Shown here: piece by piece, positions 14,877 through 20,375 of the stretch | Layout of the letters: each line of letters begins with the position of its first letter | How positions within the stretch are numbered: position 1 is the first letter of the stretch | From: Brachybacterium sacelli | Lineage (GTDB): Bacteria > Actinomycetota > Actinomycetes > Actinomycetales > Dermabacteraceae | NCBI RefSeq assembly: GCF_017876545.1 | Contig: NZ_JAGIOD010000002.1 | Location: forward strand, 1,488,001 to 1,552,000 | Length of the DNA: 64,000 nt | Direction: 5' to 3' | The notes under the pieces: model-generated | Databases searched by the model: none | What the model was told of the DNA's origin: nothing | The model's input: the letters and a program-made list of their open reading frames with translations, nothing else | Position numbers and translations under genes: made by a program

Positions 14877-17800
14877 ATGGCGACCGAGCCGCCCACCACC
14901 ACCGGTGCCCTCGCGCGCCTGGGCTTCAGCCGCACCGACCGGGTCCGCCGCTTCCTGGACGACCCCGTCCTGGCCGCCCTCGGCCCGGGAGCCGTTCAGC
15001 GCCTCGGGGCGACAGCCGACGGCGACGACGCGGTGCTCGGCCTGCTGCGCCTGGCGGAATCCGCCCAGGAGTCCGGGCAGCAGTCCCTGATGGACGACTT
15101 CCTGGCCTCCGTCGGGACGCGGGGAAGCCACGGGGAGCGACTGATCTCCCTGCTGGGGACCTCCGTCGCCCTCGGTGACTTCCTCGCCCGCCACCCCGAG
15201 TGCCTCGAGGCGCTGCGGGAGGGGGACGACGACCTGACCGTGAACGCCGCCGCGGTGCGCGGCTCGCTGCTGCGCGCCGTCGGCGCGGACCCGTCGGCCG
15301 ACGTCCCCGTCGCCGGGGAGGGCGCGCGCGAGATGCGCGACGCACTGCGGGTCGCCTACCACGAGCGGCTGGTGCAGATCGCGGCGGCCGACGTCCTCGC
15401 CCCCGATCCCACCGCCCTGCAGCCCCAGGTCTCCGCTGCGCTCAGCGATCTCGCCGACGCCGCCCTCGATGCGGCAGCCGCGATCGCCCGGGCGGCGGTC
15501 GAGGGACACGAGAAGATCCGCTGGGCCGTGATCGCCCTCGGCAAGACCGGAGCCCGGGAGCTGAACTTCCTCTCCGACGTCGACGTCATGCACGTGATCG
15601 CCCCGGCGCAGGGACGAGAAGGCGGCGAGCACGGTGATGTCGATGACATCGATGAGGAGGAGCTGGTCGCCCTCGGCTCCGCACTGGCCCGTGAGCTCGC
15701 CCGCGCCGCCTCGGACCGCACTGCCGAGGGTTCCCTCTGGCAGGTCGACGCGAACCTGCGCCCGGAGGGCAAGGACGGACCGTTGGTGCGGACCCTGGAC
15801 TCCTACCGCCGGTACTACGACCAGTGGGCGCACTCCTGGGAGTTCCAGGCGCTGCTGAAGGCCCGTGCCGCCGCCGGCGACCTCGACCTCGGACACGCCT
15901 TCGAGGAGATGGTCGAGCCATGGGTGTGGCAGGCCTCGACCCGCGACAGCTTCGTGGAGGACACCCGGGCGATGCGCCGCCGCGTCGTCGCGCACATCCC
16001 CCGCGGGGAGGTCGACCGCAACATCAAGCTCGGCCCCGGGGGCCTGCGCGACGTCGAGTTCACCGTCCAGCTGCTGCAGATGGTCCACGGACGCACCGAG
16101 GCGCGACTGCAGAGCCGCTCCACCCTGGAGTCCCTGGCACGCCTGGGGGAGGGCGGCTACATCTCCCGTGACCACGTCACCGAGATGGACGAGGCCTACC
16201 GCTTCCTGCGCTGCATCGAGCACCGTCTGCAGCTGCACCGGATGCGGCGCACCCAGGTGCTGCCCACCTCCGGGGCGGACCTTCGGCGCCTCGCGCGCAC
16301 CCTGGGACTGACCCAGGACCAGTTCCACCAGCGGTACAACCGCACCCGGCGCCGGGTGCGGCAGCTGCACGAGGAGATCTTCTACCGGCCGCTGCTGGTG
16401 ACCGCCTCGCAGCTCAGCGACGGAGAGATCGCCCTGACCCCTGAATCGGCGACGGCCCGGCTGGCCGCGATCGGCTACCGCGATGGCTCCCGCGCGCTCG
16501 GCCACATCTCGGCGCTGACCGAGGGCATCTCGCGGCGCGCCAGGATCCAGCGCCAGCTGCTGCCGGCCATGCTCGAGTGGTTCGCCGACGGGATCGACCC
16601 CGACCTCGGACTGCTCTCCTTCCGCCGCCTCTCGGACACCATCGGCTCCGCCCACTGGTATCTGGGCCTGCTGCGCGACTCCGGCCTGGCCGCCAAACGT
16701 CTGACCAGGGTGCTGTCGGCGAGCAGGTTCGTCGGCGAGCAGCTCGAGCAGATCCCCGAGGCGGTGCGCTGGCTGGCCCGCGACGAGCTGCTGAGGCCCC
16801 TGTCGCGCGACGTGTTGGGCCGGGAGTTCCTCGCCGTCATCTCCCGCGTCGACTCGGTGGAGGTCGCACGCGACGTGCTGCGCCGCTCGCGCAGCCGGGA
16901 GCTGCTGCGCATCGCTCTGGCACATCTGACCGGTGTCGCCACGCCCGCGCAGGTGGCACGGGCGCTGACCGACCTCGCCGAGGCAGTGCTCGAGGCGGGT
17001 CTGCTGGTCGCTTTCCACGTCGTGGCCCGCGAGCGGAAGGTCGTCGACGATGACGCGGAGACCCTGGACGGCATCGACGAGGTCGACGTGGACACCGCCA
17101 AGCGGCTGCGGGAACGGCGCTCCGACCCGGCCCGGGCCCTCGGCATCGAGATGGCGATCATCGCGCAGGGCAGCTTCGGCGCCCGCGAGATGGGGTACGC
17201 CTCCGACGCGGACGTGCAGTTCCTCGGCATCGATCACGGGGCGGGCGACAGCGCCGGGGAGATCGCGATCGCGGTGGCCACCCAGACCCAGAGGATCCTC
17301 AACGCGCCGGCTGCCGGGGCGGACATGAAGGTCAGCGCCGACCTGCGCCCCGAAGGGAAGGTCGGGCCGCTGGCCCGCAGCCTCGAGGCGTGGACCGACT
17401 ACTACCGACGCGACGCCCAGACCTGGGAGAAGCAAGCGCTGGTGCGGGCGCGCCCGGTGGTCGCATCGGCCGCTGTCGCCGAGCAGCTCGTGACGGAGAT
17501 GGATCGCCACCGGTACCCGAGCGGGGGACTCGACGACGGCTCGCGCCGGGAGATCGTGCGGATGAAGGCGAGAGTCGAATCCGAGCGGCTGCCTCGCAAC
17601 GCGGACCCCTCCCGGCAGGTGAAGCTGGGACGCGGTGGCATGACGGACGTCGAGTGGTGCGCGCAGATCCTCGCCATGGACCACGGCCACGAGGTCGAGG
17701 CCCTGCGCACCACCCACACCCTGACCCAGCTGGAGGCGGCGGCGGAGGCCGGGCTGATCGCGGGCCGTGAGGCCCAGGAGCTCTCGGAGGCCTGGGCCCT

Positions 17801-18005
17801 GGCCTGGCAGGTGCGCCGCTGCCTGTTCCTGTGGAAGCGGCGCGAGGGCGACGTGCTCCCGTCGGACCGCACCGAGCTGCTGGCGCTGGCCTGGCTGATC
17901 GACGGCGACGACACCTCCGCCTCCGACCTCGAGGAGCGATATCTGCGCCTGACCCGCCGCGCACGGCTCATCGCCGAACGCCTCATCTTCGGGGCCGAGG
18001 ACTAG
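14877..18005 (+). CDS. glnE: Glutamine synthetase adenylyltransferase/deadenylylase
   Basis: A bifunctional enzyme of 1042 residues, normal for the family, that adenylylates and deadenylylates glutamine synthetase according to nitrogen status. Two nucleotidyltransferase domains are visible: the N-terminal one with GARELNFLSDVDVMHV (near residue 225) and the C-terminal one with GAREMGYASDADVQFL (near 770). Each is followed by a GlnD-like domain with KLGPGGLRDVEFTVQ or KLGRGGMTDVEWCAQ. GAGGAGAGGAG precedes the ATG. Its natural target, GlnA1, is 8 kb away. Confidence 0.97.
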   Translation: MATEPPTTTGALARLGFSRTDRVRRFLDDPVLAALGPGAVQRLGATADGDDAVLGLLRLAESAQESGQQSLMDDFLASVGTRGSHGERLISLLGTSVALGDFLARHPECLEALREGDDDLTVNAAAVRGSLLRAVGADPSADVPVAGEGAREMRDALRVAYHERLVQIAAADVLAPDPTALQPQVSAALSDLADAALDAAAAIARAAVEGHEKIRWAVIALGKTGARELNFLSDVDVMHVIAPAQGREGGEHGDVDDIDEEELVALGSALARELARAASDRTAEGSLWQVDANLRPEGKDGPLVRTLDSYRRYYDQWAHSWEFQALLKARAAAGDLDLGHAFEEMVEPWVWQASTRDSFVEDTRAMRRRVVAHIPRGEVDRNIKLGPGGLRDVEFTVQLLQMVHGRTEARLQSRSTLESLARLGEGGYISRDHVTEMDEAYRFLRCIEHRLQLHRMRRTQVLPTSGADLRRLARTLGLTQDQFHQRYNRTRRRVRQLHEEIFYRPLLVTASQLSDGEIALTPESATARLAAIGYRDGSRALGHISALTEGISRRARIQRQLLPAMLEWFADGIDPDLGLLSFRRLSDTIGSAHWYLGLLRDSGLAAKRLTRVLSASRFVGEQLEQIPEAVRWLARDELLRPLSRDVLGREFLAVISRVDSVEVARDVLRRSRSRELLRIALAHLTGVATPAQVARALTDLAEAVLEAGLLVAFHVVARERKVVDDDAETLDGIDEVDVDTAKRLRERRSDPARALGIEMAIIAQGSFGAREMGYASDADVQFLGIDHGAGDSAGEIAIAVATQTQRILNAPAAGADMKVSADLRPEGKVGPLARSLEAWTDYYRRDAQTWEKQALVRARPVVASAAVAEQLVTEMDRHRYPSGGLDDGSRREIVRMKARVESERLPRNADPSRQVKLGRGGMTDVEWCAQILAMDHGHEVEALRTTHTLTQLEAAAEAGLIAGREAQELSEAWALAWQVRRCLFLWKRREGDVLPSDRTELLALAWLIDGDDTSASDLEERYLRLTRRARLIAERLIFGAED

Positions 18006-18059
18006 TCGTTGCTGGCCAGAACGGTGCCGACGTCAACCGGTAGCGGGCGATCGTGCATG

Positions 18060-18219
18060 TATCCTGATTCCGTGGAGAGGCAGCAGCGATTTCGGGACCC
18101 CCGGCCGGGAGATGGCCGCGGGGTCTTCGACGAGCGCTCGTAGCGCATCAGGTCTCCGCAGGTACGGCCGGGGGAAGCTCTCACCCTCGCCGATTTGCAA
18201 CCCTTGTGGGGACCTTCTC
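18060..18219 (+). promoter_or_regulatory. Structured leader of the PheRS-like gene
   Basis: TATCCT (18060-18065) is a likely -10 box, giving a leader of about 150 bases. The leader can form a strong stem, GACCCC (18096-18101) with GGGGTC (18120-18125) extended by GGCC/GGCC. GTGGAGAG (18072-18079) can instead pair with CTCTCAC (18178-18184). The ribosome site GGGGA (18207-18211) can be closed by CCC just upstream. No T-box sequence or known riboswitch core was recognised. Translation of the short ORF at its 5' end could choose between these folds (inference). Confidence 0.4.
18072..18143 (+). CDS. Possible 23-residue leader peptide
   Basis: GTG at 18072 lies six bases after TATCCT, the leaderless pattern used widely in this window, and opens 23 codons ending in TAG at 18141. 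The peptide contains two Phe codons, TTT at 18090 and TTC at 18126, flanking the main stem. A leader peptide with Phe codons before a Phe-tRNA synthetase-like gene suggests attenuation by Phe-tRNA supply. Two of 23 is a modest enrichment, so this is a hypothesis. Confidence 0.35.
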   Translation: MERQQRFRDPRPGDGRGVFDERS

Positions 18220-19338
18220 ATGTCGACTACCGATTACCTGACCACTGACCAGCTGTCTCGAGCGCTGACCCTGCGTGACCTCACCGATCCCGCTCATGGC
18301 GAGCACGCCATGCAAGCCCTGCTCGACGCGGTGGTGACCGCGCTGCAGTCCCGATGGCGCAGCACGGTGCGCCACGTGCGCAGCTCTCCGATCGTGCCGG
18401 TCCGCGAGAACTACGACCGTCTCGGCTACGGCCCGGACGATGTCACGCGCGACCACCGGTACACCCGGTACATCTCCTCGACGGTGATGCTCCGCAGCCA
18501 CACGAGCGCGGATGTCACGACCGCGCTGGAGGATTATGCGGGCCGTCGCGACGTCGACGAGCTGCTGGTGGTCCCCGGCCTCGCCTACCGGCGCGACGCG
18601 GTCGATCGCCATCACGTGGGCGAGCCGCACCAGGTGGACCTCTGGCGCGTGCGCAGCACTCCGGACACCGATGACGGCGAGTTGCTCGCGATGATCGGCT
18701 GCCTGGTCGACGCGGTGCTCCCGGGTACGGAGTGGACCGCGACCGATGCGGTTCACCCGTACACGGTCGGCGGGAGGCAGATCGACGTGATCCACGACGG
18801 CGAGTGCCTCGAGCTCGCCGAGTGCGGGCGAATCCATCCCGAGGTGCTGCGCGGCTCCGGGCTCGACCCCGAGCAGTGGTCGGGACTCGCGCTCGGCATG
18901 GGGCTCGAGCGCGCGCTGATGCTGCGCAAAGGCATCCCCGACATCCGGTACCTGCGGGCAGAGGACCCCCGCATCGTCTCCCAGATGCTCACCCTGGAAC
19001 CATGGCGGCACGTCTCATCCCTGCCGGCGAGCCGCCGTGACCTCTCCGTGGTGCTGGACGCCGAAGAGGACGAGGAGACCCTGGGCGATCGCATCCGCAC
19101 CGCCCTCGGGGACGATGCGGACGTGATCGAGTCCGTCGAAGTGCTCAGCCGCACCGCCCACGGCGACCTCCCCGAGGCTGCACGCTCCCGCCTCGGCACG
19201 CAGGAGGGCCAGGTCAATCTTCTGCTGCGGATCGTCCTGCGGCCCCTCGACCGCACGCTCACCTCGGACCAGGCCAACGCGATGCGCAACACGATCTACC
19301 GCGCCGTGCACGAGGGGCCGGTGTTGGAGCTGATCTGA
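18220..19338 (+). CDS. Single-chain phenylalanyl-tRNA synthetase-like protein (PheS core plus FDX-ACB)
   Basis: A 372-residue protein joining a class II PheS-type catalytic core to a C-terminal ferredoxin-fold anticodon-binding domain (FDX-ACB, about 263-372, with SRRDLSVVLD). Motif 2 is VVPGLAYRRDAVDRHH (118-132), motif 3 is LGMGLERALMLRKGIPD (225-241), and LRSHTS and ECGRIHPEVL are shared with PheS. This layout and length resemble the monomeric mitochondrial PheRS (FARS2), not the bacterial PheS/PheT heterotetramer. It could be a working one-chain PheRS, a duplicate enzyme, or a relative that uses another acceptor. ATG at 18220 follows GGGGA. Whether a standard pheST exists elsewhere cannot be seen here. 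Confidence 0.85.
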   Translation: MSTTDYLTTDQLSRALTLRDLTDPAHGEHAMQALLDAVVTALQSRWRSTVRHVRSSPIVPVRENYDRLGYGPDDVTRDHRYTRYISSTVMLRSHTSADVTTALEDYAGRRDVDELLVVPGLAYRRDAVDRHHVGEPHQVDLWRVRSTPDTDDGELLAMIGCLVDAVLPGTEWTATDAVHPYTVGGRQIDVIHDGECLELAECGRIHPEVLRGSGLDPEQWSGLALGMGLERALMLRKGIPDIRYLRAEDPRIVSQMLTLEPWRHVSSLPASRRDLSVVLDAEEDEETLGDRIRTALGDDADVIESVEVLSRTAHGDLPEAARSRLGTQEGQVNLLLRIVLRPLDRTLTSDQANAMRNTIYRAVHEGPVLELI

Positions 19339-19457: not shown

Positions 19458-20375
19458 ATGACCACCCCGAAGCTCAGCGCCGACACCCCGCGCGGCCGCA
19501 TGTACCGTCTCGAGCCCGAGGGGCCGCTGCTGTACCCCTCGATCACGACCGTCTCGGGGATGCGCGCGAAGGACCATCTGCAGGGCTGGTACGCGACCAT
19601 GGCCTCCAAGCGAGCCCTGGAGATGTACGCCTGGCTGGACCGCAATCCCGGGCGCGCCGCGGCCGAGATCTCCCGGGTCTCACGGGACACCTGGGGAACC
19701 CAGAAGCGCATCGCGGCGGCCGCCCCCGAGTACACGCGCACCGCCGCCGATTTCGGCACCCTGGTCCATGCGGCCTGCGAGCTGTGGGGGACCAGCGGGT
19801 CCCGCCCCACGGCGGACGAGGTGAGCGGCCTCGCCGAGTCCATGCGCGCCGGACAGGGCGCGTTCGCGACGGAGAAGGACCCTCGCGCCCTGGTCTCCCG
19901 GGCCGATGTTCGCCTGGACGGCTACGCCCGCTTCCTGGAGGACTACCAGCCCGAGTTCGTCGAGGTCGAGCAGACCGTCGTCAACCACACCGTGGGCTAC
20001 GCCGGCACCACCGACGCGATCGTACGGATCGGCAACACCCTGCTCAGCGGCGACATCAAGACCTCGAAGAAGGTGCGCGGCGACTACGCCCTGCAGGGGG
20101 TCGCCGTCTGCCGCGCCGAGCAGCTGCTGGACGACGACGGCACCGTGCGGGAGATGCCGGAGCTGACCGGGGCGTTCATCATCCACCTCCCGGAGGCCGG
20201 GGGCTATCAGGTGGTGCCGCTGCGCACCGGCGACGCCGAGTTCGAGGTGTTCCGCTCCCTGCGCAGCGCCTGGTCGTTCGAGCCCGACGAGTGCGCGCTC
20301 GGCACCGCCTCCGGACCGAAGGACCTGGTGCTGTCGCTGCTGCGCGCCAAAGGGGGGATGGACGCACTGGACTGA
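19458..20375 (+). CDS. PD-(D/E)XK nuclease family protein (RecB/Cas4-like)
   Basis: A 305-residue protein with RecB-nuclease-like features: GTLVHAACELW near residue 96, the metal-binding GTTDAIVRIG near 180, then SGDIKTSKKV (the D-x-K element) near 196 and DYALQGVAV, the glutamine motif. There is no helicase or CRISPR gene beside it, and similar stand-alone proteins occur in actinobacteria and phages. The substrate is unknown. GAGGAG precedes the ATG. It follows the PheRS-like gene after about 120 bases, where TACCGT near 19400 may be its own -10 box. Confidence 0.75.
   Translation: MTTPKLSADTPRGRMYRLEPEGPLLYPSITTVSGMRAKDHLQGWYATMASKRALEMYAWLDRNPGRAAAEISRVSRDTWGTQKRIAAAAPEYTRTAADFGTLVHAACELWGTSGSRPTADEVSGLAESMRAGQGAFATEKDPRALVSRADVRLDGYARFLEDYQPEFVEVEQTVVNHTVGYAGTTDAIVRIGNTLLSGDIKTSKKVRGDYALQGVAVCRAEQLLDDDGTVREMPELTGAFIIHLPEAGGYQVVPLRTGDAEFEVFRSLRSAWSFEPDECALGTASGPKDLVLSLLRAKGGMDALD

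Follow-up and report, generated by a model that had tools for sequence, protein, structure and literature searches.

The window, a 64,000-nucleotide stretch of the Brachybacterium sacelli genome, carries on its forward strand a 372-residue open reading frame (ORF) that joins a PheS-type catalytic core to an FDX-ACB domain. A conserved leader precedes this gene at 18060-18219. Upstream of the leader and gene lies a glnE-like ORF, assigned by eye (14877-18005), and downstream a 305-aa ORF (19458-20375). The features of the locus are:

18060..18065, forward strand: TATCCT, a -10-like TAnnnT box, its end 6 nt upstream of the leader start
18072..18143, forward strand: leader peptide ORF of the RFxxP type, GTG to TAG, VERQQRFRDPRPGDGRGVFDERS
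18090..18092, forward strand: the leader's TTT, a rare Phe codon and the proposed sensor
18096..18107, forward strand: RNA segment A, directly 3' of the TTT codon, partner of B or D
18114..18125, forward strand: RNA segment B, partner of A or C
18151..18157, forward strand: RNA segment C, partner of the ribosome-binding site or B
18165..18174, forward strand: RNA segment D, alternative partner of A
18206..18214, forward strand: SrmL ribosome-binding site, sequesterable by C
18220..19338, forward strand: SrmL ORF, 372 aa, ATG to TGA, 0 Phe codons
18388..18987, forward strand: PheS-type catalytic core, residues 57-256 (Pfam PF01409, 100.8 bits)
18637..18639, forward strand: D140, counterpart of M. 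tuberculosis PheS E217 (alignment, numbering mapped here)
18754..18762, forward strand: H179-P180-Y181, in place of the FPF loop (F255 and F257 of M. tuberculosis PheS; alignment)
18820..18822, forward strand: E201, counterpart of M. tuberculosis PheS G282 (alignment, numbering mapped here)
19015..19311, forward strand: FDX-ACB domain, residues 266-364 (Pfam PF03147, 30.0 bits)

The encoded protein matches NCBIfam NF051887, 'PheS-related mystery ligase SrmL', at 524.8 bits (cut-off 300), and a second copy in the same genome scores 523.3 bits. By this profile, SrmL is a member of a family to which NCBI has already given a name but no function. Pfam bears out the earlier, sequence-only reading of the ORF as a PheS core plus FDX-ACB domain within 372 residues; the FDX-ACB score falls just short of the PF03147 cut-off of 31.1 and exceeds it when frame neighbours are included. 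Motif 2 (residues 118-132) and motif 3 (225-241) lie where that reading placed them, and the class II motifs retain their ATP-binding arginines: R124 and R231, like R125, are invariant in 65 aligned sequences, the window SrmL among them. That reading made no mention of the lack of Phe in the protein, the leader at 18060-18219, the second SrmL gene or the existing NCBI family name. Models of three PheS types match below their cut-offs, namely the mitochondrial model TIGR00469 (120.2 bits, cut-off 258.35), the bacterial model TIGR00468 (80.9 bits, cut-off 237.45; the bacterial FPF loop is also absent, with HPY in its place), and the archaeal pheS model (54 bits). A search for literature on SrmL and on PheS-like or PheRS-like enzymes, with coverage that stops short of most subscription papers and of bioRxiv preprints, listed no paper on them.

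The sequence-only reading had also called for a structure prediction and had likened the protein to mitochondrial FARS2. An AlphaFold2 model computed from a 62-sequence alignment (pLDDT 94.4, pTM 0.90) finds human mitochondrial PheRS as its top PDB matches (3cmq, TM 0.80, query-normalised). The likeness to FARS2 thus holds in layout and fold, both proteins placing a PheS core and a C-terminal FDX-ACB domain in one chain; as far as examined, it does not extend to descent. FARS2 retains the FPF pocket and is rich in Phe, whereas SrmL has HPY. If SrmL were the prokaryotic ancestor of FARS2, the shared two-domain layout and the FARS2-type structural match would follow from a common single-chain origin. 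However, the FARS2 cores share more identity with bacterial PheS (38.3%) than with SrmL (31.5%), and SrmL forms one deep clade that excludes FARS2 in a quick unrooted tree of 89 rows, the comparison comprising vertebrate FARS2 rows only and no archaeal outgroup. We consider such an ancestry very improbable. Derivation of FARS2 from phage SrmL is likewise unsupported by these core identities and this tree, given the same vertebrate rows and absent outgroup.

The composition of SrmL is unusual in that both Phe codons, TTT and TTC, are absent from its ORF. Among 241 SrmL-type proteins (the best 120 of 2743 matches, the best 120 of 1795 matches, and the second copy), 188, including the window SrmL, contain no Phe; the 53 with 1-10 Phe count against the Phe-free reserve PheRS proposed below. 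Phe makes up 0.17% of the residues in this set, and Trp (1.45%), Tyr (3.51%) and Cys (0.80%) are retained. A less redundant subset of 108 among the best matches includes 78 proteins with 0 Phe. Phe is also absent from 48 of 72 SrmL proteins taken from loci or named records, and 69 of the 72 contain no more than two. For comparison, the host's own PheS contains 13 Phe, five other PheS contain 15-23, and FARS2 averages 25.75 with a minimum of 19 (120 proteins among the matches listed). Because the protein contains no Phe, SrmL could be made without charged tRNA-Phe.

Residues of the amino acid pocket set SrmL apart from bacterial PheRS. Relative to M. tuberculosis PheS, E217 is replaced by D140, F255 by H179, F257 by Y181, and G282 by E201, and all four positions are invariant in the 65 aligned sequences. 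The covered part of PMC12447630 reports that the FPF-loop phenylalanines are conserved across all bacteria and that inhibitor fragments of PheRS contact this loop. These invariant differences favor an enzyme in which the adenylating fold survives while the amino acid or acceptor that is charged or ligated is a different one; the name 'mystery ligase' implies as much, and the sequence-only reading had raised the possibility of another substrate. Against such a change, a Phe-free protein must lose F255 and F257, and at these same two positions the Phe-using human cytosolic PheRS carries Asn and Tyr, according to the covered part of PMC3275996. We attribute the change from FPF to HPY to the absence of Phe from the protein, and the altered pocket was dropped as a sign of a new substrate once that absence was noticed. 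The loss of pocket residues, which the sequence-only reading had named as grounds for rejecting a synthetase, is therefore found in part, and the part found is one that a Phe-free enzyme must show. Moreover, a leader Phe codon combined with a Phe-free protein fits Phe best, and a huge phage described below (G047) has its own His, Trp and Tyr synthetases, which leaves Phe as the open aromatic seat. A substrate other than Phe is accordingly disfavored and, in our judgment, unlikely. As a guess, E201 may fill the role of E217 in the SrmL pocket. The FDX-ACB domain of SrmL is acidic (net charge -8), which counts against a PheRS; the FDX-ACB domains of three PheT proteins are likewise acidic, at -6 to -9.

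The leader in front of SrmL is itself conserved. Short ORFs of the RFxxP type occur in 69 of 81 upstream regions when either Phe codon is allowed in the search, compared with 16 of 2542 control windows (15 with TTC, one with TTT); the 12 regions where no such leader was found include the phage ones and count against the proposal. The leader Phe codon is TTT in 67 of the 69 and TTC in two, against a background TTT share of 3.1% (159/5076) among the Phe codons of long, coding-like ORFs at these loci. These counts include related sequences, so that the events are not independent, and L009/L051, L011/L029 and L032/L094 look like duplicate loci. A TAnnnT box stands 5-8 nt from the start codon in 55 of 68 leaders, at spacing 9 in one more, and is absent in 12; spacing 5-8 occurs at 4 of 424 random ATG or GTG codons. 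Because this box ends only 6 nt before the start codon in the window, the leader ORF is suggested to be leaderless.

Downstream of the TTT codon, the leader RNA can form two mutually exclusive pairings, either A:B together with C and the ribosome-binding site (C:RBS), or A:D together with B:C. Covariation was assessed in 42 aligned leaders out of the 69, with A:B + C:RBS taken from the fold of the window. In this arrangement 88.9% of cells are paired and 29 are changed on both sides, against a shuffled mean of 9.7, with 0 of 500 shuffles as high. Slid versions of the same pairing reach 35-52% of cells paired, and their covariation scores of 0.035-0.113 come close to the 0.136 of the real one, a margin that we count against it. 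For A:D, 99.0% of cells are paired and 11 are changed on both sides, against 1.6 when shuffled (0/500); pair types show no excess over shuffled alignments (182/500). The RNAalifold consensus of the leaders is A:D + B:C, while folding of single leaders yields a local hairpin after the UUU codon in 11 of 12, L031 adopting the A:D form. Duplexes of C with its own ribosome-binding site average -24.6 versus -20.8 when partners are swapped, and in 45 of 54 cases the own duplex beats the average of the swapped ones. Rfam regulatory RNAs, including the T-box, give no match up to E 1 in 17950-18300.

The region thus contains what characterizes a ribosome-mediated attenuator, a leader ORF with a regulatory codon and mutually exclusive covarying helices, and its anatomy is that of a leader-coupled switch. 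Equilibrium folding of the window's leader leaves the SrmL ribosome-binding site hidden when a ribosome is modeled at UUU, a result that counts against release by stalling there, and largely frees it when the ribosome is modeled at the leader stop codon. The direction of switching, with SrmL made upon stalling, is one that we infer.

The sequence-only reading had proposed a genome search for pheS and pheT, and both an ordinary pheS and a pheT-type frame are present. In the 4.87-Mb host genome, canonical pheS lies at C2:616107, and at C2:619213 an FDX-ACB match sits within a long frame alignable to PheT proteins. The second SrmL, at C2:1614000, is 71% identical to that of the window. Because this copy groups apart from the window copy, with Tessaracoccus and Brevibacterium (99% SH-aLRT in the quick tree of 89 rows), the two probably represent separate acquisitions. 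SrmL scores above its cut-off in three of 47 genomes of the host's family, its own included, and occurs in one of 395 further genomes sampled evenly across the phylum (E 1e-60). A pattern scan of genome contigs recovered 74 loci, mostly from Actinobacteria and also from Myxococcota, Alphaproteobacteria and Cyanobacteria. Three plasmid matches were obtained at E 1e-40, one of them partial; on one plasmid SrmL follows a chloramphenicol efflux gene by about 480 nt, with tet(33) about 8 kb away. The SrmL protein of this Glutamicibacter plasmid (L094, NZ_CP142605) is identical to that of a Brevibacterium mcbrellneri genome contig (L032). SrmL is, in short, rare and mobile in Actinobacteria.

DNA similarity among loci covers the leader and the gene, starting at 18043-18086 and ending at most about 25 nt from the stop codon (35 of the 77 loci searched). 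Loci seldom share other flanking sequence; examples are a 1.7-kb stretch about 5 kb from the second copy, 90% identical in L046, and short response-regulator matches. Since similarity spans leader and gene and little else, the gene appears mostly to travel alone with its leader. Conserved neighbors were sought in 76 loci and rejected as a lead, only large common families appearing at varying places (ABC ATPase 20, Cmx-like MFS 9, response regulators 8). The sole fixed-place neighbor is a transposase-like ORF, assigned by eye, directly downstream of SrmL in four loci. A dedicated tRNA beside bacterial SrmL was likewise rejected; ordinary tRNAs or tmRNA occur in 8 of 74 genome loci, with no pattern. 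A link of SrmL with chloramphenicol-type efflux genes is hinted at.

These patterns bear on the likely trigger of SrmL. In a variant that overlaps with a reserve PheRS, SrmL would be a high-affinity or stress form of the enzyme triggered by ordinary Phe starvation, and indeed the leader would respond to any drop in charged tRNA-Phe. A second synthetase, however, supplies no Phe, and the sporadic spread, the plasmid copies, and the efflux gene and tet(33) look like resistance cargo. We regard starvation as a possible but rather doubtful trigger, and favor a reserve enzyme directed at failure of the housekeeping PheRS.

SrmL is also found in the genomes of huge phages. A relative with 40-41% identity is encoded in the 634,780-bp phage record LR745206, and further SrmL genes occur in the IMG/VR records G047 (507,910 bp), G049 (516,805 bp) and G048 (180,807 bp). 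In all four records, which may be fragments, SrmL is the only strong PheS-core match, and PheT (PF17759) is found in none; G047 has one weak extra PF01409 match, on its LysRS frame. Other synthetases are present in the three large records LR745206, G047 and G049. The smallest, G048 (L097), has SrmL with no PF00587 or PheT match and may be a bacterial contig. Huge phages that carry numerous tRNAs together with as many as 15 synthetases have been described (Al-Shayeb 2020, PMC7162821, as covered in part).

Within the 267,910 bases of G047 covered, ARAGORN finds 60 tRNA genes (the identity of two is uncertain) serving all 20 amino acids, among them two tRNA-Phe about 8 kb upstream of SrmL. The phage SrmL (434.3 bits, NCBIfam) starts 8 nt after HisRS inside a synthetase cluster. 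By best NCBIfam names, these bases encode 14 synthetases besides SrmL. Seven of them (Thr, Asn, Asp, Pro, Gln, Ser and Tyr) score above a cut-off attached to their name; the other seven (Val, Lys, Trp, His, Arg, Gly and Ala) are short forms that stay under it, with weak matches for Arg, Gly and Ala. An IleRS and a LeuRS come from a Pfam search, and their names rest on similarity to the NCBIfam-named enzymes of LR745206. Judged from this gene content, SrmL occupies the PheRS seat of the G047 set. No literature joining huge phages with phenylalanyl-tRNA synthetase was found, again with most subscription papers and bioRxiv preprints outside coverage.

The other synthetases of G047 are also depleted in the amino acid that they charge. 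The counts below give the enzyme's own amino acid, with the expectation taken from the content of that amino acid in the other 16 of the 17 enzymes:

ThrRS: Thr 0, expected 21.2
AsnRS: Asn 1, expected 23.2
ArgRS: Arg 1, expected 18.6
AspRS: Asp 0, expected 28.0
ProRS: Pro 0, expected 13.6
GlnRS: Gln 1, expected 20.0
ValRS: Val 0, expected 32.1
LysRS: Lys 1, expected 33.7
TrpRS: Trp 0, expected 3.4
HisRS: His 0, expected 4.4
SrmL: Phe 0, expected 18.8
GlyRS: Gly 1, expected 16.4
AlaRS: Ala 0, expected 10.0
TyrRS: Tyr 0, expected 16.7
IleRS: Ile 0, expected 61.2
SerRS: Ser 12, expected 25.6
LeuRS: Leu 20, expected 38.5

Fourteen of the 16 non-Phe synthetases thus contain 0-1 cognate residues against 3-61 expected, whereas among 323 cells that pair an enzyme with an amino acid not its own, those with an expectation of at least 3 fall below a ratio of 0.2 in two cases only, both Trp. 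The exceptions, SerRS and LeuRS, are restricted in their codons. The G047 SerRS encodes Ser by AGT and AGC alone, with no UCN, and the LeuRS of G047 and of LR745206 both use TTG as their sole Leu codon (SerRS and the two LeuRS at L096:7142-8413, L133:1537-2805 and L138:1510-2775). Because the two LeuRS use only UUG and the SerRS only AGY, the individual tRNA isoacceptor seems to be the unit of avoidance. An artefact of an alternative genetic code was rejected as the cause of the depletion, since the phage uses the codons in question freely in its other synthetases.

The same pattern is seen in LR745206 and in part in G049. IleRS enzymes entirely lacking Ile, where 61-68 are expected, are encoded in G047 (742 aa, L134:1426-3654) and in LR745206 (735 aa, L131:1426-3633). 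In LR745206 the missing amino acid agrees with the NCBIfam name in 8 of 8 enzymes (D, N, R, H, I, V, A, G); the missing residues were computed before naming, although the choice of proteins was made in knowledge of the result, the check is not fully blind given that G047 homologues had already been named, and only part of the LR745206 and G049 synthetase frames is covered. G049 (L098) is mixed. Its ValRS has 0 Val of 28.7 expected, in agreement with its name, and its SrmL has 6 Phe of 18.3; the synthetases for Asp (34 of 41.7), Ser (24 of 19.4), Trp (3 of 5.9) and Thr (12 of 22.9), named by Pfam family and by eye, are more ordinary. Other short ORFs that lack one amino acid were also noted: Cys is missing in three, and Tyr, Gln, Arg or Lys in single cases, two of the ORFs lying on the minus strand.

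The purge is seen, then, in two phages and partly in a third. We think it likely that synthetase sets of huge phages have been purged of the amino acid that each enzyme charges, for the restart of translation without charged tRNAs, and that SrmL is the Phe member of such a set, shared with bacterial mobile elements. Phage SrmL would accordingly be one of a set of enzymes, each makeable without its product. Both the reason for the purge and the direction of SrmL transfer between phages and bacteria are ones that we infer.

Taken together, we propose, with a probability of roughly 80%, that SrmL is a mobile single-chain reserve PheRS, made when charged tRNA-Phe falls and recharging tRNA-Phe. The suggestion of a second, regulated or specialised Phe-tRNA synthetase is thereby the best of the earlier readings, given an ordinary pheS with a pheT-type frame in the host, the Phe-codon leader, and the PheRS seat in phage. 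In the proposed sequence of events, charged tRNA-Phe would drop, for example upon poisoning of the housekeeping PheRS; a ribosome would stall at the leader UUU, the RNA would refold and SrmL would be made; finally, the Phe-free SrmL, translated without the product that it supplies, would recharge tRNA-Phe. Enzymatic activity, induction and a role in resistance are presumed, and bacterial SrmL would most likely be directed against agents that block the housekeeping PheRS.

As Vecchione and Sello reportedly described in 2010, Streptomyces TrpRS1 is an auxiliary antibiotic-resistant synthetase under attenuation. Such an attenuated auxiliary resistance gene would be the nearest parallel to SrmL. 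In both cases a second synthetase exists beside a housekeeping one, with a leader able to sense the cognate charged tRNA. Unlike TrpRS1, SrmL is single-chain and Phe-free, and its helices hide a ribosome-binding site; the TrpRS1 type is a resistance system, whereas SrmL is known from sequence. Literature on PheRS self-resistance, duplicated synthetases and leader-controlled PheRS yielded no title describing an SrmL-like system, and a term search of the main text of PMC9437257 found no PheRS. In the main text of PMC7162821, 'cognate' and 'phenylalan' occur 0 times and an absence of cognate residues is unmentioned; bootstrapping by cognate-free synthetases is not mentioned in the literature passages covered.

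To the NF051887 family we add its Phe-free sequence, its leader and its phage context, and a named mystery family thereby gains a testable function. If our proposal is true, SrmL would serve as a minimal, portable PheRS that is produced at the very moment PheRS fails. Developers of PheRS drugs are concerned as well, since the FPF loop contacted by inhibitor fragments, according to the part of PMC12447630 covered, is gone in SrmL. The cognate-free synthetases of the phages point to a bootstrapping strategy for the takeover of translation, and they also offer natural scaffolds in which the complete loss of one amino acid is tolerated.
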